Shown one piece after another: positions 4,180 to 47,195 of a stretch of DNA of 64,000 nucleotides; positions within the stretch are counted from its first letter, which is position 1; the number at the start of each line of letters is the position of its first letter. The notes under the pieces are model-generated. The model saw only the letters and a program-made list of their open reading frames with translations, was not told the DNA's origin and searched no databases. The stretch covers positions 2,104,571 to 2,168,570 of the forward strand of contig NZ_MTFE01000010.1 of NCBI RefSeq assembly GCF_001953305.1, given 5' to 3'. The translations under genes were made by a program, and so were the position numbers. This DNA is from Cnuella takakiae (lineage in GTDB: Bacteria; Bacteroidota; Bacteroidia; Chitinophagales; Chitinophagaceae).

Positions 4180-4209
4180 TAGCCATTGAAACGACCAATC
4201 CTCCCCAAC

Positions 4210-6660
4210 ATGGAAGTACTAACCCCCATACCGCCTAAAAAGGCAGCACCCGCCCAGCCCAGGCAGGCTACTACCTGCTACCACTGTGGTGAAGCCTGCG
4301 ATCAGGCCATCCCCGAAGATGACCATTTCTTCTGCTGCAAAGGCTGCAAGTTCGTGTACAGCCTGCTCAAGGAAAACGGGATGTGCAACTACTATGAGCT
4401 GAGCAACACGCCGGGTATTAAGGTAAAAGGCAGGTTCTCTTCCGACCGCTTTGCTTACCTCGACAACGAAGAGGTGGTAAACAAACTCCTCAGCTTTACC
4501 GATGGAAAGGTGAGCCATGTAAACCTCTACCTGCCACAGATGCACTGTGCATCCTGCATCTGGCTGCTGGAAAACCTCCATGCCATTCAGCCTGGCATCC
4601 TGCAAAGCACCACCAACTTCGGACAGAAAGAAATCTTCATTGCCTACGACCCTGCCCAAACCTCCCTGCGCAAAGTGGTGGAGCTGCTGGCCTTCGTAGG
4701 TTATGAGCCTTATATCACGTTTAACGACGGTGAGCAAAAGCAACCCAAGAAGATCACCCGCAAGCAGTTTTACAAGATTGGTATTGCCGGTTTTGCCTTC
4801 AGCCAGATCATGATGATGTCCTTTCCCGAGTACTTTGCTTCGGGGCAGATTAGCGAGGCTTACCTACAGCGCATCTTTTCCTGGCTCAACCTGGTGCTGG
4901 CCCTGCCGGTTTTCTTTTATAGCGCTTCCGACTTCTTTGTATCCGCATATAAAGGCCTGCGGCAAAACTGGCTTAATATCGATGCACCCATTGCGCTTTC
5001 CATCGTAATGACCTTCAGCCGGAGCGTGTACGAGGTAGTGAGCGGTACCGGCCCGGGCTATTTCGATTCCATGTCGGGCATCGTGTTCTTTATGCTGGTG
5101 GGCCGGTGGTTCCAGAACAAAACCCACGATGCATTCTCCTTTGACCGCGACTATAAATCTTATTTCCCGCTGGGCGTAACCCGCATGGGTGAGGATGGGG
5201 GAGAGGAGGCAATCTCAATTTCCAATATCAAGGCCGGCGACCGCATCCTGGTACGCCACAACGAAATGGTTCCCGCCGACGGCATCATCCGCAATGGCGA
5301 GGGCAGCATCGACTACAGCTTTGTGTCGGGCGAGAACACGCCGGTGCATAAGCGGAAGGGCGAGCTGGTGTATGCCGGTGCCCGCCAATTGGGCGGCAGC
5401 CTGGAGCTGGAAGTGGTGAAAGCCGTTTCGCAGAGCTATATCACCCAACTGTGGAACAACAACGAAGGCATGGGAGCGGAGAAGAACAGGGACAAATCCT
5501 TTATCCATCCCTGGAGCCGCTATTTTACTGCAGCACTTTTTACCATCGCTGCAAGTGCCGGTATTTACTGGGCCATTGTAAACCCGGCCAATATCCTTCC
5601 TGCTGTCACTGCAGCACTGATCGTAGCCTGCCCTTGCTCGTTGCTCCTGTCAGCCACCTTTACGTTTGGCAACATGATGCGCATCTTTGGCAAACACAAG
5701 ATGTACCTCAAAAATGCATCGGTAATAGAGGGCCTTTCAAGGGTAAACCATATTGTTTTTGATAAAACTGGTACCCTTACCCATACCACCAAGGCACAGG
5801 TAAAATTCATTGGGCTCGCCCTCGGCCAGTACGAAAACAGCCTGGTGTACAGCGTTGCCAAACAAAGTGCGCATCCCCTGAGCCGCCTGTTGGCTGCCTA
5901 CCTGCTGGATGCGAACGCAAAGCCGTTGCCCGTTGCTGGTTTCCAGGAACTGGCAGGCAAGGGCGCTGAAGCCACCATCAATGGTGAACTCGTTCGCATC
6001 GGTTCTGCAGCCTTTGTTACCGGCACGGCCATGGAAAAGAAAGGTACCGGCCCTGAAGTGTATGTATCTATTGGTGGCAAACTGAAAGGACATTTTGCCA
6101 TAGCCAACAGTTACCGCGAGGGCGTGAAAGCCATGGTTGCCGACCTGGAGAAAAAGGGCTATCAATTGCACCTGCTTTCCGGCGATAATGCATCTGAAAA
6201 AAGCAATCTCCAGCAAATCTTTGGCACCGATACACCCATGCACTTCGGGCAAAGCCCACAAAGCAAGCTGGAATACATTGCCCTTTTGCAACAGGAACCA
6301 CAGGCTCGCGTACTGATGCTGGGTGATGGCCTCAACGATGCCGGTGCCCTCCGCCAGAGTGATGTGGGCGTGGCTGTGAGCGAGAACACCAGCCAGTTTA
6401 CCCCGGCTTCCGATGCCATTTTGGATAGTGCCAATGTGGGCAAGCTCCACCAGTTGCTCTCCTTTGCCAAAGCAGGTAAAAAGATTGTAACTGGCTCATT
6501 TATCCTGTCGATTCTCTACAACTGTGTGGGTTTAAGTTTTGCCACCACAGCCAATCTCTCGCCCATGGTAGCGGCCATCCTGATGCCTGCAAGCTCTATA
6601 TCGATCATCGTGTTCACGGCGCTGGCTGCGGCAGTAGCGGCCAGGCGGCGGGGGCTTTGA
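4210..6660 (+). CDS. ccoI: Copper-transporting P1B-type ATPase, CcoI/FixI type
   Basis: Heavy-metal P-type ATPase, in this context the copper exporter needed for assembling the cbb3 oxidase. 816 aa from ATG 4210; an in-frame TTG at 4186 is nearly on the predicted transcription start and is less likely. N-terminal Cys cluster C23-x2-C26 ... C42-C43-x2-C46 (the CcoI-type metal-binding domain), HMA-like MHCASC (111-116), eight expected membrane helices, the CPC metal site in IVACPCSLL (about 474-476), phosphorylation motif DKTGTLT (Asp518) and hinge GDGLNDAGAL. The first gene of the cbb3 locus, followed by repeats and ccoS. Confidence 0.93.
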   Translation: MEVLTPIPPKKAAPAQPRQATTCYHCGEACDQAIPEDDHFFCCKGCKFVYSLLKENGMCNYYELSNTPGIKVKGRFSSDRFAYLDNEEVVNKLLSFTDGKVSHVNLYLPQMHCASCIWLLENLHAIQPGILQSTTNFGQKEIFIAYDPAQTSLRKVVELLAFVGYEPYITFNDGEQKQPKKITRKQFYKIGIAGFAFSQIMMMSFPEYFASGQISEAYLQRIFSWLNLVLALPVFFYSASDFFVSAYKGLRQNWLNIDAPIALSIVMTFSRSVYEVVSGTGPGYFDSMSGIVFFMLVGRWFQNKTHDAFSFDRDYKSYFPLGVTRMGEDGGEEAISISNIKAGDRILVRHNEMVPADGIIRNGEGSIDYSFVSGENTPVHKRKGELVYAGARQLGGSLELEVVKAVSQSYITQLWNNNEGMGAEKNRDKSFIHPWSRYFTAALFTIAASAGIYWAIVNPANILPAVTAALIVACPCSLLLSATFTFGNMMRIFGKHKMYLKNASVIEGLSRVNHIVFDKTGTLTHTTKAQVKFIGLALGQYENSLVYSVAKQSAHPLSRLLAAYLLDANAKPLPVAGFQELAGKGAEATINGELVRIGSAAFVTGTAMEKKGTGPEVYVSIGGKLKGHFAIANSYREGVKAMVADLEKKGYQLHLLSGDNASEKSNLQQIFGTDTPMHFGQSPQSKLEYIALLQQEPQARVLMLGDGLNDAGALRQSDVGVAVSENTSQFTPASDAILDSANVGKLHQLLSFAKAGKKIVTGSFILSILYNCVGLSFATTANLSPMVAAILMPASSISIIVFTALAAAVAARRRGL

Positions 6661-26098: not shown

Positions 26099-26512
26099 TT
26101 ACAGGTCTTCGGGCAGCCACAGATGCCTGATACATTTTGCCAACTCCACCAGCTTGTTGAAAGTATCGGGTTTGGTGATAAAGCAGTTGGCGCCCATATG
26201 GTAAGTGGCCTGGCGGTCGCGGTCCGAAGAAGAAGTGGTAAAGACAATGGTGGGTATGGACAGCAATTGTTCGCTGCTTTTTATTTCGCGCAATGCCTCG
26301 CGGCCATCTTTGCCGGGCATATTCAGGTCGATGAGAATCAGGGAAGGCAGGTTGCCCTCCATTGCGGTGGCTGCCAGGTATTGCATCAGGCGGTCGCCGT
26401 TTTCCATAAACACATGGTTAAGTCCATCACCACTGGCCTCAAAAGCATCCCTGATAATTTCCCGGTCATCGGCATCATCGTCAACAATAACTATGGTTTT
26501 ATTTAATTTCAT
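26099..26512 (-). CDS. Single-domain response regulator (CheY/Rcp1-like)
   Basis: 137 aa, receiver domain only. Acidic pocket D11-D12-D13, phospho-acceptor Asp62 in LILIDLNMPGKDG, switch Thr92/93, and Lys114 in FITKPDTF. No output domain. Starts 39 bases downstream of the stop of the six-PAS kinase on the same strand, so the two are presumably one operon and a cognate pair; the output must come through another protein. The length and the Rcp1-like spacing suit a phosphorelay or protein-protein output. Confidence 0.93.
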   Translation of the reverse strand: MKLNKTIVIVDDDADDREIIRDAFEASGDGLNHVFMENGDRLMQYLAATAMEGNLPSLILIDLNMPGKDGREALREIKSSEQLLSIPTIVFTTSSSDRDRQATYHMGANCFITKPDTFNKLVELAKCIRHLWLPEDL

Positions 26513-39162: not shown

Positions 39163-40293
39163 ATGCGTGCAATACAGATGGTTGACTTAAAAGCACAGTA
39201 CCACAAGATCAAAGCAGAAGTGGATGCAGCCGTGCTGGGTGTTCTGGAAAGTTGTGCTTTTATCAATGGGCCCCATGTCGGGCGTTTTGCACAGGCACTG
39301 GCCCAATACCAGGATGCCAAACATGTGATTCCCTGTGCCAACGGTACCGATGCACTGCAAATAGCCATGATGGCGCTGGGCCTGGAGCCCGGCGATGAAG
39401 TGATCACACCTTCCTTTACCTATATCGCTACTACCGAGGTGATTGCCCTTTTGCGCCTCACCCCCGTGTTTGTGGATGTGGACCCTAAAACATTCTGTAT
39501 CGACCCTGCAGCTATTGAAAAGGCTATTACGCCCAAAACAAAAGCCATTGTGCCAGTGCACTTGTACGGCCAGGCCGCCGATATGGAGGCCATTATGGAC
39601 ATTGCCCGGCGCCACAACCTTTTTGTGATTGAGGACAATGCCCAGGCCATTGGCTGTGATATCTATTATGCTGATGGCTCGGTACGTAAGACCGGCTCTA
39701 TAGGCACGGTGGGCACCACTTCCTTTTTCCCTTCCAAAAACCTGGGCGGTTACGGCGATGGCGGTGCCATGGTTACCAACGACGATGCCGTTGCCGATAC
39801 CCTGCGAATGGTGGCCAACCACGGCCAGAAGGTGCGTTATTACCACGATATCGTAGGCTGCAACAGCCGCCTCGACACCATTCAGGCTGCCATTTTAGAA
39901 ATAAAACTGGCCCATTTAAACGATTATATTGATGCCCGTCGCCGGGTTGCCGATTACTACGACCAGGCCTTTGCTGGACTTCCTGGAGTGACCACGCCAT
40001 TCCGCAGCGAAAAAAGCCGGCACGTGTTCCATCAATACACCTTAATTTTAGAAGGTGTTGACAGGAATGGCTTACATGATTATCTTGCAACCCTCAATAT
40101 CCCTTCCATGATCTATTATCCGGTACCCGCGCACCGGCAACAAATGTTCGCCGCTTTCGGATCTTCCGAACAGCACCTGCCGGTTACCGATTGGTTGACA
40201 GAGCGAGTAATATCTCTGCCAATTCATACCGAGATGGATGATGAACAACTACAGCATATTACGTCAAGCGTAAGGAATTACTTAACCAAATAG
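39163..40293 (+). CDS. DegT/DnrJ/EryC1 family sugar aminotransferase
   Basis: 376 aa from ATG 39163 (MRAIQMVDLKAQY). PLP-dependent aminotransferase acting on keto nucleotide sugars. Motifs: CANGTDALQIAM, TPSFTYIATTEVI, VPVHLYGQAADME, EDNAQAIGCD (cofactor Asp), and the PLP lysine in TTSFFPSKNLGGYGDGG. The sequence resembles WbpE-type enzymes that aminate UDP-3-keto sugars; the exact substrate is inference. First gene of the nucleotide-sugar block, 7 bases before ugd. Confidence 0.88.
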   Translation: MRAIQMVDLKAQYHKIKAEVDAAVLGVLESCAFINGPHVGRFAQALAQYQDAKHVIPCANGTDALQIAMMALGLEPGDEVITPSFTYIATTEVIALLRLTPVFVDVDPKTFCIDPAAIEKAITPKTKAIVPVHLYGQAADMEAIMDIARRHNLFVIEDNAQAIGCDIYYADGSVRKTGSIGTVGTTSFFPSKNLGGYGDGGAMVTNDDAVADTLRMVANHGQKVRYYHDIVGCNSRLDTIQAAILEIKLAHLNDYIDARRRVADYYDQAFAGLPGVTTPFRSEKSRHVFHQYTLILEGVDRNGLHDYLATLNIPSMIYYPVPAHRQQMFAAFGSSEQHLPVTDWLTERVISLPIHTEMDDEQLQHITSSVRNYLTK

Positions 40294-40300
40294 AAACCAA

Positions 40301-41626
40301 ATGAAAATCGCTGTTGTTGGCACGGGATACGTGGGCCTGGTAACAGGTACCTGCCTTGCTGAAACCGGAAACACCGTTACCTGCGTGGATATTGATCAAC
40401 GCAAAGTGCAAAAACTCCAGTCTGGACAAATCACCATTTACGAGCCAGGACTGGAAAAACTTTTCGATCGTAACCTGAAAGAAGAGCGCCTGCTCTTCAC
40501 GACCTCCCTTGCTGATGGTATCAAAGACGCGGAAATCATCTTCCTTGCCCTGCCCACCCCTCCGGGTGCGGACGGATCTGCCGACCTGCGTTATGTGCTG
40601 GGTGTGGCAGACGATATTGGTAAACTGCTCCAGGACTATAAAGTTATCATCGATAAGAGCACCGTACCCGTTGGTACGGCCGAAAAGGTACATGCTGCCA
40701 TTGCCGCCAACTACAAAGGCGAGTTCGATGTAGTGTCCAACCCCGAGTTCCTGCGCGAAGGCGTGGCCGTGGACGACTTCATGAAGCCCGACCGGGTGGT
40801 GATTGGTACTACATCGGAACGTGCACAAAAGCTGCTCACCGAGCTTTATGCTCCCTATGTGCGCCAGGGTAACCCCTTGATTTTCATGGATGAGCGCTCG
40901 GCTGAACTGACCAAGTATGCCGCCAACTCCTTCCTGGCTACCAAAATTTCGTTCATGAACGAGATTGCGCAGCTTTGCGAAAGGCTGGGTGCTGATGTGG
41001 ATATGGTACGCCGCGGTATCGGCTCCGATGATCGTATTGGCAAGCGTTTTCTCTTCCCCGGTATTGGCTACGGCGGCTCCTGCTTTCCCAAGGATGTGCA
41101 GGCCCTGGTACATTCTTCGGGCGAGGCGGATTACGACTTTAAGATCCTCAATGCAGTGATGGAAGTGAATGAAACCCAAAAGCGCCACCTGGTAAGCAAA
41201 ATTAAAGCTTACTACGAAGGTGGGCTTACCGGTAAGCACTTTGCACTGTGGGGTTTGGCTTTCAAACCCAATACCGATGACATCCGTGAGGCACCAGCCC
41301 TGGAAATCATTGATGCGCTGGTGGAAGCAGGTGCTACCGTAACTGCTTTCGACCCTGAGGCAATGAACAATGTGCGCGGTGTAATTGGCGATAAGATCCA
41401 GTACGCCGAGACTACTTACGATGCACTGGAAGGCGCTGATGCGCTGATCATTGCAACGGAGTGGAACGAGTTCCGCACCCCTGATTTTGACAAAATACTG
41501 GCAACGCTGAAGGAGCCTGTGGTGTTTGACGGCCGTAACCTCTTTGAGGTGCAGCACATGTACGAAAAAGGCTTCCATTATGAAAGCATTGGCCGTCCGC
41601 TGATCCAACTCCCTAAAATAGTATAA
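40301..41626 (+). CDS. ugd: UDP-glucose 6-dehydrogenase
   Basis: 441 aa. Two-step NAD-dependent oxidation of UDP-glucose to UDP-glucuronate. Rossmann start [20 protein letters not shown], catalytic region [15 protein letters not shown], catalytic Cys in [16 protein letters not shown], and the C-terminal domain with [14 protein letters not shown]. Its stop overlaps the next ATG (TAATG), so product flow to the decarboxylase is built into the operon. Confidence 0.95.
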
Positions 41627-42606
41627 TGGCTAAACGTATCCTTATAACCGGTGGCGCAGGCTTCCTGGGTTCCCACCTGTGCGACCGGTTTATAGGAGAA
41701 GGGTATCATGTTATTGCTATGGACAACCTGATAACAGGTGACATGCGCAACATTGAGCACCTTTTATCCTTACCCAATTTCGAGTTCTACCACCACGATG
41801 TCACCAAGTTCATTCACCTGCCTGGTGAACTGGACTACATCCTGCACTTTGCCTCGCCGGCATCGCCCATCGACTACCTGAAGATTCCCATTCAGACCTT
41901 GAAGGTTGGTGCCATGGGCACACACAACTGTCTGGGTTTGGCAAAAGCCAAGCGGGCCCGCATCCTGGTGGCATCTACATCTGAAGTGTATGGCGATCCG
42001 CTGGTGCACCCGCAAACCGAAGAGTACTGGGGTAATGTAAACCCGGTAGGTCCGCGCGGTGTGTACGATGAAGCCAAACGCTATCTGGAAAGCATCACCA
42101 TGGCTTACCACAACTTCCATGGAGTGGAAACCCGCATCATCCGCATCTTTAACACCTATGGTCCGCGTATGCGGCTCAACGACGGCCGTGCACTACCCGC
42201 CTTTATCGGCCAGGCACTCCGTGGCGAAGACCTGACCGTGTTTGGCGATGGTTCGCAAACCCGCTCTTTCTGTTATGTGGACGACCTGGTAGATGGCATC
42301 TACCGCCTGCTGCTGAGCGATTACCACCTGCCGGTAAACATCGGTAACCCCAGCGAAATTTCGCTGCTGGACTTTGCCGAAGAGGTGCTGGCACTTACCG
42401 GTGGCGAGGTAGGTATCACCTTCAAACCCCTGCCGGCCGATGATCCCAAACAGCGCAAGCCCGATATCACCAAGGCTCGCGAGATCCTCGGTTGGGAACC
42501 CAAGGTGGGCCGCAAGGAAGGACTCCGGAGGACTTTTGAGTACTTCAAAACCCTGCCTTCCGAAGAGTGGAGCCGCCAGCCCAAAGAATTCGTTAGTATG
42601 AAATAA
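41626..42606 (+). CDS. uxs: UDP-glucuronate decarboxylase (UDP-xylose synthase)
   Basis: 326 aa, extended SDR. Makes UDP-xylose from UDP-glucuronate. [14 protein letters not shown] binds [19 protein letters not shown] and [20 protein letters not shown] are UXS hallmarks; catalytic Thr/Ser in STSEVYGDP and YxxxK in [11 protein letters not shown], plus the downstream [16 protein letters not shown]. One-base overlap with ugd. Confidence 0.93.
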
Positions 42607-42609
42607 TCT

Positions 42610-42650
42610 AAACCCTGTATGCGGGCACGAGCCTGTGTACAGGGTTTTTA
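42610..42650 (+). terminator. Terminator-like hairpin after uxs
   Basis: Stem AAACCCTGTA/TACAGGGTTT (42610-42619 with 42638-42647) with an 18-base loop and a T-run. It separates the first three glycan genes from the following three. Confidence 0.75.
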
Positions 42651-42698
42651 ATTACTCCTTAACCCTACACCCCTTGAAAACGCAATTGTTCGCCCCCT

Positions 42699-43988
42699 AT
42701 GTACCAAGCATTGTTGAATGGCAGGCAAAAGCTTGCTGTTATTGGCCTCGGCTATGTGGGGTTACCCATAGCCCTTGAATTTGCACGCAGGCTACCCGTC
42801 ATCGGGTTTGATATCGATCCCCAACGCATCCACCTCATGCAGCAGGGCATTGACCCCAGTAAGGAAATTGACCCCGAGGCTTTGCTGGAGTGCAATATCC
42901 AGTTTACCTGCAGCCAGGCCGACCTGAAAGCGGCCAGTTTCTACATCGTTGCCGTTCCCACCCCTGTAGATGAATGCAATCTCCCCGACCTAAGGCTGCT
43001 GAAAAAAGCTGCCGCCACCATTGGCCATTGTATTAAGAAGGGAGATTACGTAGTATTTGAATCCACCGTTTATCCCGGTTGTACAGAAGAAGTTTGCCTG
43101 CCTATTATTGAACAGATTTCAGGACTGCGTTGCGGTACCGATTTTAGTTTGGGCTATTCACCTGAACGGATCAACCCGGGCGATAAACGCCATACCCTTG
43201 CTAACATTACCAAAGTCGTATCGGCAAATAATGCTGAAGCAATGGAAGTTATTGCGCAGGTCTATGCACTGGTTGTAAAAGCGGGAGTACACAAAGTCAG
43301 CAGCATTAAAGTGGCAGAAGCGGCCAAGATCATTGAGAACACCCAGCGCGACCTCAACATCGCATTGATGAACGAACTGTCGATGATTTTTGACCGCATG
43401 GGTATTGATACCTACGAGGTGCTTGAAGCTGCCGGCACCAAGTGGAACTTTGTAAAGTTCAGTCCCGGCCTCGTAGGCGGTCACTGCATTGGCGTTGATC
43501 CCTATTATCTTACTTACAAGGCCAGCAAGTTAGGTTATAATTCAAAAGTGATCCTGGCAGGCCGTGATACCAATGATAATATGGCTGCCTACCTGGTGCG
43601 CAAACTGATACAACACATTATACGCAATGTAAAAGAGGTGAAAAGCGCAAGGGTATTGGTGATGGGCGCCACTTTCAAGGAAAACATTGCCGACATCCGG
43701 AATTCAAAAGTGGCTGATGTGGTAAAAGAACTGAAAGACTTTTCCCTGCAGGTAGATGTACTTGACCCCTATGCAAGTACCGATGCAGTACAGCAGGAGT
43801 ATGGCTTTGGCCTGGCTTCCGCTGCTGAAGGCTTGTATGATGCAGTAGTTATTTCTGTTGCGCATGAGCAGTATAATGTGCTTGACGATGCTTATTTTGC
43901 AGCCATCACCAACACCAACGCCCTGGTTGCTGATGTAAAAGGAATGTACCGGGGTAAAATAAAAAGCAGATCCTACTGGAGTTTTTAG
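42699..43988 (+). CDS. UDP-N-acetyl-hexosamine 6-dehydrogenase type (WbpA/WbpO/TviB-like)
   Basis: 429 aa nucleotide-sugar dehydrogenase of the branch that oxidises UDP-HexNAc to the uronic acid. VIGLGYVGLPIALEFARR binds NAD; VAVPTPVDE, FESTVYPGCTEE, GYSPERINPGD, catalytic Lys/Asn in VAEAAKIIENTQRDLNIALMNE (no more than family-level match) and the Cys in GGHCIGVDPYYL follow; the C-terminal domain starts MGATFKENIADIRNSK. These motifs separate it from ugd upstream. The exact sugar (GlcNAc, GalNAc or ManNAc) is not readable. Two bases before rmlC. Confidence 0.9.
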   Translation: MYQALLNGRQKLAVIGLGYVGLPIALEFARRLPVIGFDIDPQRIHLMQQGIDPSKEIDPEALLECNIQFTCSQADLKAASFYIVAVPTPVDECNLPDLRLLKKAAATIGHCIKKGDYVVFESTVYPGCTEEVCLPIIEQISGLRCGTDFSLGYSPERINPGDKRHTLANITKVVSANNAEAMEVIAQVYALVVKAGVHKVSSIKVAEAAKIIENTQRDLNIALMNELSMIFDRMGIDTYEVLEAAGTKWNFVKFSPGLVGGHCIGVDPYYLTYKASKLGYNSKVILAGRDTNDNMAAYLVRKLIQHIIRNVKEVKSARVLVMGATFKENIADIRNSKVADVVKELKDFSLQVDVLDPYASTDAVQQEYGFGLASAAEGLYDAVVISVAHEQYNVLDDAYFAAITNTNALVADVKGMYRGKIKSRSYWSF

Positions 43989-43990
43989 TT

Positions 43991-44545
43991 ATGCAATTTG
44001 AAACATGTCATATCCCCGGCCTGGTCATTGTAACGCCCAAAGTTTTCAGTGACAGCAGGGGCTTCTTTTTTGAAGCTTACAACCGCAAACCATTCGAAGA
44101 AGCCGGCATCACTGCCAACTTTGTACAAGACAACCAATCGCAATCAAGCTATGGCGTGATCCGTGGTTTGCATTTTCAACGCAACCCTTTTGCACAGTCC
44201 AAACTGGTGCGGGTATTACAGGGAACCATCCTGGATGTAGGAGTTGATATCCGCGAAGGCTCGCCAACTTTCGGCCAGCATTTTTCCATTGAGCTGTCTG
44301 CCGAAAACAAAAAGCAACTATTCCTCCCCGCAGGTTTTGCCCATGGCTTTTCGGTACTTAGCGAAACTGCCATTGTTGCCTACAAATGCGATAATTATTA
44401 CAGTAAAGAAAGCGAAGGCGGCATCCGTTATGATGATCCTGAGCTGGCTATAGACTGGAAAATCGATCCGGCAAAAGCCATTGTTTCCGGTAAGGATCTT
44501 GAACTGCCGCTGCTTTCCGAATCCTTTGCAAATTTCACCTACTAA
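43991..44545 (+). CDS. rfbC: dTDP-4-dehydrorhamnose 3,5-epimerase
   Basis: 184 aa cupin-fold enzyme of dTDP-L-rhamnose synthesis. SRGFFFEAYN, QDNQSQSSYGVIRGLHFQ (catalytic His), DVGVDIREGSPTFGQ and PAGFAHGFSVLSETAIVAYK are all family motifs. Followed 2 bases later by rfbD. The first two enzymes of the route (RfbA and RfbB) are not in this window, so they must be encoded elsewhere. Confidence 0.95.
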   Translation: MQFETCHIPGLVIVTPKVFSDSRGFFFEAYNRKPFEEAGITANFVQDNQSQSSYGVIRGLHFQRNPFAQSKLVRVLQGTILDVGVDIREGSPTFGQHFSIELSAENKKQLFLPAGFAHGFSVLSETAIVAYKCDNYYSKESEGGIRYDDPELAIDWKIDPAKAIVSGKDLELPLLSESFANFTY

Positions 44546-44547
44546 CC

Positions 44548-45411
44548 ATGAAGATTTTGATCACCGGCGGTGCCGGCCAACTGGGCCAGGCTTTCCAGCA
44601 ACTGGCTGCCGCACACCCTCACCATCAATTTATTTTTACCGACCGCACAGAACTCGACATCACCGATGAAGGCGCTGTAGATAAAATGCTGCGCGAAACA
44701 GGTGTTGAAGCCCTGGTAAACTGCGCTGCTTATACCGCTGTTGACAAAGCCGAGACCGATGTGGAGTTGGCTTATGCCATCAATGCTACAGCTGCCGGTG
44801 TGCTGGCCCGTGCCTGTGCCGCTACAGGTGTGCAACTGGTGCACGTTTCAACCGACTATGTTTTTAATGGTGCAGGCAAAGAACCCTACCGCGAAAACGA
44901 TCCGGTAAGCCCGGTGAGCGTGTATGGTGCCTCCAAGCAAATGGGCGAAGCCGAAGTGCTGGAGGCGAACAAAGATGCGGTGATCATCCGTACCTCCTGG
45001 GTGTATGCACCTTTTGCCAACAACTTTGTAAAAACCATGCTGCGCCTGATGCAGAGCCGCCCCGAGATCGGCGTAGTGGCCGACCAGTTTGGCTCGCCCA
45101 CCAATGCCCTTGACCTTGCAGCAGCCATTTTACAGGTGCTGGATAGCGGCACCAGGCAAGGTGGCATTTTCCACTTCAGCAACGAAGGCGTTATCAGCTG
45201 GTATGATTTCGCGCTGGCCATCAGGGACCTGAGCGGATTGGACTGCCAGGTAAAACCCCTCACCACTGCCGAATACCCTACTCCTGCAAAAAGGCCTGCC
45301 TACTCAGTGATGGACAAAACCAAGATCCAGGAAGTTTACGGCATAAGGCTAAAACCCTGGAAGGAGAGCCTGGCAGCATGCCTCGAACAACTGGCTACTG
45401 TCAAAGCCTGA
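44548..45411 (+). CDS. rfbD: dTDP-4-dehydrorhamnose reductase
   Basis: 287 aa SDR, last step of dTDP-L-rhamnose synthesis. [16 protein letters not shown] (NADPH site), DITDEGAV, NCAAYTAVDKAE, STDYVFNG with the catalytic Thr, and YGASKQMGEAEV with Tyr and Lys; then RTSWVYAPFANNFVKTM. Ends with the sequence RLKPWKESLAACL typical of RmlD. Followed by a strong terminator. Confidence 0.95.
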   Translation: MKILITGGAGQLGQAFQQLAAAHPHHQFIFTDRTELDITDEGAVDKMLRETGVEALVNCAAYTAVDKAETDVELAYAINATAAGVLARACAATGVQLVHVSTDYVFNGAGKEPYRENDPVSPVSVYGASKQMGEAEVLEANKDAVIIRTSWVYAPFANNFVKTMLRLMQSRPEIGVVADQFGSPTNALDLAAAILQVLDSGTRQGGIFHFSNEGVISWYDFALAIRDLSGLDCQVKPLTTAEYPTPAKRPAYSVMDKTKIQEVYGIRLKPWKESLAACLEQLATVKA

Positions 45412-45422
45412 TATTTTGTGAG

Positions 45423-45462
45423 AAAGGGAGCAGGGAAATTCAGGAAACCTGCTCCCTTTTTT
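45423..45462 (+). terminator. Terminator of the nucleotide-sugar operon
   Basis: 12-bp stem AAAGGGAGCAGG/CCTGCTCCCTTT (loop about 13 bases) followed by TTT, 11 bases after rfbD. Confidence 0.9.
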
Positions 45463-45569: not shown

Positions 45570-47195
45570 ATGAATCAAGCCTTTGATTTTTTCAGAAAAC
45601 TGCTGGATACTTCTGACTGGCCACCCCGTTGGCATTGCGGTAAGTGGACGGAATTTCATGGCTGGTTATACATCATCAGCGACCTGCTGATATGGTCGGC
45701 ATATTTTGCCATTCCGCTGATCATCCTGAAGTTTGTTTCGCGCCGTTCCAAGGCGCGTTTTGTAAGGGCTTATTTTTTATTTGCTGCGTTTATACTTGCC
45801 TGTGGTTCCACCCACCTGTTGGATGCCATTACTTTTTGGTACCCTGCCTATCGCCTCAATGCACTGGTGCGCCTTATCACTGGTGTCGTTAGCTGGGCTA
45901 CCGTTTTTTACATGATCCGCATCATGCCTGAGGCCATGACCCTCAAATCAAACGAGGAACTGGAAAAGGAGGTGCAGGAGCGGCGGAAAGTAGAATCCGA
46001 GTTGCGTTTTGCAAACCAGCAATTGGAAACCGCGCAAGCCATTGCCAACATGGGCAACTGGCAATGGGACATTGCAAGCGACAAGGTTACCTGGTCGGTA
46101 AAGTTGTACGAGATATTTGGCCAGGAAAAAGGTACGGAAATCAACTTCGAGTCTTACCTCCAGTACATTCACCCGGACGACCGCGACCGCGTGAGCAACC
46201 TGGTAAAGGAAGCCTTGCGCACCACGCATTTTCCCAGTTTTTACCACCGCATTCAACAAGACACAGGTCCGGAGAAAATCATCCTGGCCAAAGGAGAGGT
46301 GCTGGTGAATGAAGCCGGTCGGGTTATCGGAATGGTAGGTACCGCACAGGACGTAACCGACCAGCAAAAGGCGCAACAAGACCTCATAGAAAAGACCCAA
46401 GCACTGGAAGTCACCAACACCGAGTTGCAACGATTTGCATATGTGGCCTCCCACGACCTGCAGGAGCCGCTGCGCAAGATTCTCACTTTTGCTTCACTGC
46501 TGCAAAAAGAATCATTTGGTACTTTTGATGAACGCAGCGCCCTCTATATTCAGAAGATTGTACAGTCAACCGGAAGGATGCAGCACCTGATTGAAGACAT
46601 CCTCCAGTTTTCGAGCATTAAGGATAAAAAGCAAGGATTTATTCCCCTCGACCTGAATGCTGTTTTGCAGCAGGTTTTGTCCGATATGGAAGTGATGATT
46701 GAACAATCGGGCGCCGAGATTACCTGGAAAGACCTGCCCAAGGTGGAAGGCAATCCTTCGCAACTGGGCCAGCTGCTGCAAAACCTGCTGACCAATGCCA
46801 TTAAGTTTGTAAAACCCGGTGAAGCACCACGCATCGAAATTTTTTGCGAACAGTTGAACGCAGCAGCATTGGAACAAGATCCTTCTTTCCGGGCTTATTT
46901 GTCGGTATTGCAGGTAAGTGAGCCTTTGTGGCAACAAATAGACTTTGTGCTGGTGCATGTTCGCGATCATGGCATTGGCTTCGATATGGCCTACTACGAT
47001 AAGGTTTTTGAAATCTTCCAGCGCCTGCATCCTGGCCATGAGTACGGCGGCACAGGCATTGGACTGGCTATCTGCAAACGCATCATAGAAAACCACCACG
47101 GTTTTATTTCGGCTCAAAGCAAGGAAGGCCAAGGTGCCACCTTCTCTTTCCTTTTGCCCGTTTCGCAACGCCATTTCTCTTTAGCTGGTTTATGA
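45570..47195 (+). CDS. Histidine kinase with an ethylene-receptor-like N-terminal membrane domain
   Basis: 541 aa. The N-terminal three-helix domain (about residues 32-125) reproduces the ethylene-binding domain of plant ETR1 and cyanobacterial Etr1: ISDLLIWSAYFAIP gives Asp38, Tyr45, Ile48 and Pro49, and ILACGSTHLLDA gives the copper ligands Cys78 and His82. Spacing equals ETR1 (Asp25, Tyr32, Ile35, Pro36, Cys65, His69), including the 40-residue Asp-Cys distance. Then a coiled coil (about 125-155), one PAS/PAC (about 155-265), HisKA with His295 in FAYVASHDLQEPLRK, and HATPase with NLLTNAIKFV, DHGIGF and GGTGIGLAICKR. No receiver domain and no adjacent regulator gene. Ligand binding is inference. 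Confidence 0.9.
   Translation: MNQAFDFFRKLLDTSDWPPRWHCGKWTEFHGWLYIISDLLIWSAYFAIPLIILKFVSRRSKARFVRAYFLFAAFILACGSTHLLDAITFWYPAYRLNALVRLITGVVSWATVFYMIRIMPEAMTLKSNEELEKEVQERRKVESELRFANQQLETAQAIANMGNWQWDIASDKVTWSVKLYEIFGQEKGTEINFESYLQYIHPDDRDRVSNLVKEALRTTHFPSFYHRIQQDTGPEKIILAKGEVLVNEAGRVIGMVGTAQDVTDQQKAQQDLIEKTQALEVTNTELQRFAYVASHDLQEPLRKILTFASLLQKESFGTFDERSALYIQKIVQSTGRMQHLIEDILQFSSIKDKKQGFIPLDLNAVLQQVLSDMEVMIEQSGAEITWKDLPKVEGNPSQLGQLLQNLLTNAIKFVKPGEAPRIEIFCEQLNAAALEQDPSFRAYLSVLQVSEPLWQQIDFVLVHVRDHGIGFDMAYYDKVFEIFQRLHPGHEYGGTGIGLAICKRIIENHHGFISAQSKEGQGATFSFLLPVSQRHFSLAGL

Follow-up and report, generated by a model that had tools for sequence, protein, structure and literature searches.

The histidine kinase encoded at positions 45570–47195 of the window (the whole 64,000-nt stretch of DNA that was analyzed, from the soil bacterium Cnuella takakiae; positions are on its forward strand unless noted) is probably a Cu(I)-dependent receptor for ethylene or a similar small olefin, signaling via an unlinked response regulator. 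The reading frame starts with ATG and is intact over 541 aa, and Pfam divides the product into an N-terminal ethylene-binding domain (EBD), a PAS_3 domain, HisKA, and HATPase_c. The EBD match (PF25487, ETR1_N; aa 30–124, positions 45657–45941) cannot be attributed to chance because it scores 112 bits (E = 1.7e-32), compared to a curated cut-off of 27 bits. The original prediction had named such an HMM alignment as a check on its proposal of an ethylene-binding domain, and this is the result of that check.

All seven ethylene-binding residues are present, and each is offset from its ETR1 equivalent by a constant 13 positions: D38 (ETR1 D25), Y45 (Y32), I48 (I35), P49 (P36), I75 (I62), C78 (C65), and H82 (H69). 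Six of these had been predicted, with the ETR1 spacing, and all six were found; I75 had not been listed. The ETR1 residue numbers come from what we take to be the Arabidopsis ETR1 sequence. They were cross-checked using AzoEtr1 (L107, Azospirillum brasilense Sp7), in which D35, C75, H79, and K98 align to the same columns as are named in the published work (PMC11819568). The copper of ETR1 has been placed at Asp25, Cys65, and His69 (PMC12643061), with one Cu per monomer (PMC6586836), and the corresponding D, C, and H are kept in all 15 of the closest EBD-PAS-HK kinases.

The anticipated three-helix layout also fits. AlphaFold2 predicts transmembrane helices at aa 29–58 (positions 45654–45743, with D38, Y45, I48, and P49), aa 65–87 (45762–45830, with I75, C78, H82, and a subfamily-specific D85), and aa 94–124 (45849–45941, with R101 where ETR1 has K91), and the hydropathy peaks agree. 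The model, built from 78 related sequences, shows these three long helices at the N terminus followed by a PAS-HK body of standard form (mean pLDDT 81.6, pTM 0.50; pLDDT about 65–85 in the three-helix region). Ahead of helix 1 is the motif WPPRWHCGKW (aa 17–26, 45618–45647), recognized from alignment of a Bacteroidota subfamily (the “RW” type, see below) across which W21, C23, G24, and W26 are almost invariant. The PAS_3 domain (aa 173–259, 46086–46346) has no recognized cofactor motif. The output parts are of bacterial type and all intact, with the phospho-acceptor His295 (in SHDLQEPLR) in the HisKA dimerization domain (aa 286–351, 46425–46622) and the N, G1, F, and G2 boxes in the HATPase_c catalytic domain (aa 394–532, 46749–47165). 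A Foldseek search of the PDB gave a meaningful match for the kinase part only, the core resembling the RpBphP2 bacteriophytochrome kinase (8f71; 36% identity, TMt 0.83), and a PDB sequence search with the EBD as query returned no matches.

The functional assignment leans on homologs that have been studied experimentally. The first 130 aa of AzoEtr1 bind 14C-ethylene, variants C75A and D35A were constructed in the expectation that they would not bind, and Azospirillum cells without AzoEtr1 lose ethylene binding (PMC11819568). In Synechocystis, the SynEtr1 EBD binds ethylene and the protein signals by phosphorelay (PMC6682694). For both domains, ethylene binding was seen in yeast (PMC6682694, PMC11819568), which bears out the precedent on which the original prediction relied, a cyanobacterial Etr1 that binds ethylene. 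Its suggestion that copper and ethylene binding is conceivable for this kinase remains the best inference, drawn from the domain of these tested homologs.

The closest parallel among characterized receptors is AzoEtr1, which has the same EBD-PAS-HisKA-HATPase layout, likewise lacks a receiver domain, and carries the full set of seven binding residues; it is similar in length (525 aa, vs. 541 aa for the window kinase), with 37.8% identity over the domain. It differs in carrying a PHG.C..W motif and Lys98, where the window kinase has PPRWHCGKW and Arg101, and in having an adjacent response-regulator gene (PMC11819568), of which there is none beside the window kinase. SynEtr1 (UirS/PixA) likewise has an N-terminal EBD with the seven residues, a C-terminal histidine kinase, and a response-regulator pathway; however, it also has a cyanobacteriochrome photosensor (PMC6682694), whereas the window kinase has PAS_3 only. 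Arabidopsis ETR1 and ERS1 match the window kinase in the residues that bind copper and ethylene and in how these are spaced, but have GAF in place of PAS and K91 in place of R101, are located in the ER, and act via CTR1. Other RW-type kinases of Bacteroidota (in Niastella, Pseudoflavitalea, Spirosoma, Mucilaginibacter, and Flavipsychrobacter; L027–L106) share PRWxCGxW, D85, the same ligands, and mostly R101, although many of them carry several PAS domains or have a response regulator next to them, whereas the window clade is orphan and located behind rmlD. EBD kinases are thus already known from cyanobacteria and proteobacteria, including one with the same layout, and the papers cited here also mention other bacterial phyla without detail, so the novelty is weaker than had been proposed. 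What is added here are the altered helix-2 and helix-3 residues of the subfamily, the orphan status, and a side clade without copper ligands (both described below).

Of 76 scorable relatives, 40 have a response-regulator gene, mostly single-domain and often overlapping, immediately 3′ of the kinase. Such a gene is absent from that position in the window and in the four nearest relatives, and the window kinase is an orphan. A search of the genome by similarity to the ~165-aa regulators beside three related kinases (L047, L049, L050) gave 52 matches, none outstanding, and the genome has many stand-alone response regulators. One of these many possible partners is in the window itself (L151, 137 aa; 26099–26512, reverse strand), and ranks fourth in the genome by similarity to regulators that accompany related EBD kinases.

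The neighboring genes hint that the kinase may influence polysaccharide at the cell surface, attachment, or biofilm. The kinase gene had been described as standing between two glycan-biosynthesis blocks, which holds for the window, but relatives share just the upstream block; the downstream one is specific to the window. The upstream sugar-nucleotide block (39163–45411; DegT aminotransferase, UDP-sugar dehydrogenase, NAD-epimerase/UXS-like, NDP-sugar dehydrogenase, rmlC, and rmlD) adjoins the kinase, with its gene order unchanged, in five genomes including the window (the others are L027, L028, L033, and L054), and is therefore an old neighbor within the window clade. In six cousins from Flavipsychrobacter/Taibaiella-type genomes (L051, L055, L056, L057, L062, L102), the EBD kinase is directly behind kdsA (KDO synthesis) or sdaA (serine deaminase); the distance to kdsA is 60–107 bp in L055, L062, and L102, and in L051 the kinase follows kdsA..kdsB-sdaA.

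One could go further and propose that the kinase specifically controls the adjoining sugar-nucleotide and surface-polysaccharide genes, a reading that is compatible with an ethylene receptor and that we regard as possible but doubtful. The rmlC-rmlD neighbor in five genomes and the kdsA neighbors of the cousins favor it, as does the fact that the Synechocystis and Azospirillum ethylene receptors alter surface, EPS, and biofilm; in Azospirillum, ethylene or disruption of AzoEtr1 lowers biofilm, EPS-like material, and root colonization (PMC11819568). However, a terminator-like hairpin (45420–45462; 15-bp stem, T-rich tail, −24.8 kcal/mol, z −4.5) is located between rmlD and the kinase, in L027 as well as in the window. 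Because it separates the kinase from the upstream block, the surface-glycan link, and with it the earlier idea that surface properties are a conceivable target, is suggestive only. Also, the syntenic block is wider than the sugar genes and takes in tdk and waaA, so simple vertical inheritance may explain the rml neighbor. Furthermore, rmlC-rmlD occur without the kinase in two genomes of the same genus, and the lack of conservation of the downstream glycan genes weighs on the same side. An rmlD-kinase operon was considered and is weakened by the intervening hairpin; a consensus promoter scan for the kinase found nothing above chance.

Comparison of 132 ethylene-binding domains places the kinase within a Bacteroidota type, here termed RW, that is defined by PRWxCGxW before helix 1. 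(One phylum locus, L119, has a misread frame and is disregarded in this comparison, in the covariation, and in the EBD tree, which is short, weakly supported, and used for close groupings only.) In RW domains the counterpart of ETR1 Lys91 is almost always Arg, and Asp85 lies three residues beyond the His ligand, at the place of ETR1 N72 on the side of helix 2 that faces the metal. Domains of the PHGxC..W type, found in cyanobacteria, proteobacteria, and some Bacteroidota, have Lys at the K91 place and varied residues at the 85 place. The replacement of the helix-3 Lys (ETR1 K91, AzoEtr1 K98) by Arg101 in the window kinase retains the charge, and this position covaries with D38: of 117 domains with intact Cys/His and D or E at 38, 115 have K or R at 101, compared to none of the five with N or S at 38 (Fisher p = 1e-7, ignoring kinship between sequences; the N/S38 cases come from at least three lineages). 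The covariation therefore supports the Asp25–Lys91 contact that has been modeled in the ethylene-binding domain (PMC11819568).

Five proteins (L005, L009, L015, L118, and L120) are natural double variants of this pair, in which Asp38 is replaced by Asn or Ser and the helix-3 Lys/Arg by Leu or Asp, with Cys and His retained. Separately, an EBD kinase gene on an Acaryochloris plasmid (L109), annotated as three adjoining pieces and possibly broken, has Gln at the Lys91 place.

With Arg101 replacing Lys91 and an additional Asp85 at the metal face, the domain could differ from ETR1 in its affinity or in the ligand it selects. It is thus fair to ask if the domain is a copper-holding sensor for some other small ligand (another olefin, acetylene, CO, or NO) or for Cu(I) itself, which we consider unlikely. 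Apart from the two subfamily-specific residues near the metal face, the case for this is that we know of no RW-subfamily EBD, and seemingly none from Bacteroidota, that has been assayed, and that a search of the genome for ACC deaminase found no match, so there is no independent hint of plant-ethylene biology. On the other hand, the kinase keeps all seven ethylene-binding residues, including those of the nonmetal hydrophobic pocket (I48, P49, and I75), and copper-response genes were not noticed beside the kinase among the relatives inspected. The original prediction would have copper supplied by a CcoI-type ATPase pathway, which proves unspecific, as the ATPase in the window falls below the Cu-ATPase cut-off and four other Cu-type P1B ATPases in the genome are above it. 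The gene in question is perhaps the heavy-metal P-type ATPase at 4186–6660, which is under both the Cu-ATPase and the heavy-metal ATPase cut-offs.

Within the EBD family there is a side clade of seven EBD-PAS-HisKA proteins (L007, L019, L020, L021, L022, L026, and L088; 336–365 aa) without a HATPase domain, an architecture confirmed by Pfam for five of the seven. In these proteins the helix-2 copper-ligand His is replaced, and sometimes the Cys too, so that ligand loss accompanies ATPase loss in 7/7, whereas the ATPase is kept in 87 of 89 complete ligand-intact proteins (Fisher p = 3e-9, with kinship between proteins ignored). The pattern suggests a link between copper ligands and kinase function across the family, with the window kinase on the functional side. 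One further protein (L076, 353 aa) has no detected ATPase but keeps the ligands, and is a possible intermediate. Because the side clade kept the fold while losing Cys/His, the fold can persist without copper, and the ETR1_N scaffold might by extension be a mere membrane anchor or dimerizer, with the true input coming through PAS or from a partner protein, but this is very improbable given that the ligand-less proteins also lack the ATPase domain, that the scorable HATPase-bearing proteins keep both ligands in 87/87, and that the window kinase retains ligands and ATPase domain alike.

Returning to a receptor for ethylene or a similar olefin, the protein would be a dimeric receptor histidine kinase in the inner membrane. 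By homology to the tested proteins, its three-helix N-terminal domain should hold Cu(I) through Cys78 and His82, with Asp38 helping, and should bind ethylene or a similar small olefin reversibly at this site. Binding would then shift the arrangement of helices 1 and 3 via the D38–R101 pair, and the shift would pass through a coiled linker and the PAS domain to the kinase. Phosphorylation of His295, and subsequently that of an unlinked stand-alone response regulator, would go up or down; output through a response regulator is what the experimentally tested homologs lead us to expect.

The window genome, which belongs to the Flavisolibacter group of the Chitinophagaceae, has one ETR1_N-type domain. 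Among 149 genomes of the Chitinophagaceae, 24 have an EBD (22 of them above the curated cut-off), as do 21 of 395 in the phylum sample; within the genus, 4 of 18 genomes carry a full-length ortholog of the kinase. Paracnuella aquatica has the closest named EBD match, 89% identical over the domain. Given these frequencies, the kinase is a patchy accessory trait, and its patchy presence within the genus indicates that its function is dispensable.

At its broadest, and we think this rather improbable, the RW domain would be a distinct version of the copper site (Asp85 beside the His ligand, and Arg101) with another ligand or affinity than the plant and cyanobacterial receptors, coupled in the window clade to surface-sugar genes; it may then be a widespread, unrecognized gas sense of soil Bacteroidota, with the ligand-less relatives as modulators. 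Regardless, the natural copper-site variants at D38, R101, and D85 could be used to probe signaling by the domain. Both plants and soil microbes produce ethylene, and functional ethylene receptors have been shown in one cyanobacterium and one alphaproteobacterium. If the kinases of this patchy set of soil and rhizosphere Bacteroidota are ethylene receptors, they would extend ethylene sensing to a dominant root-associated phylum.
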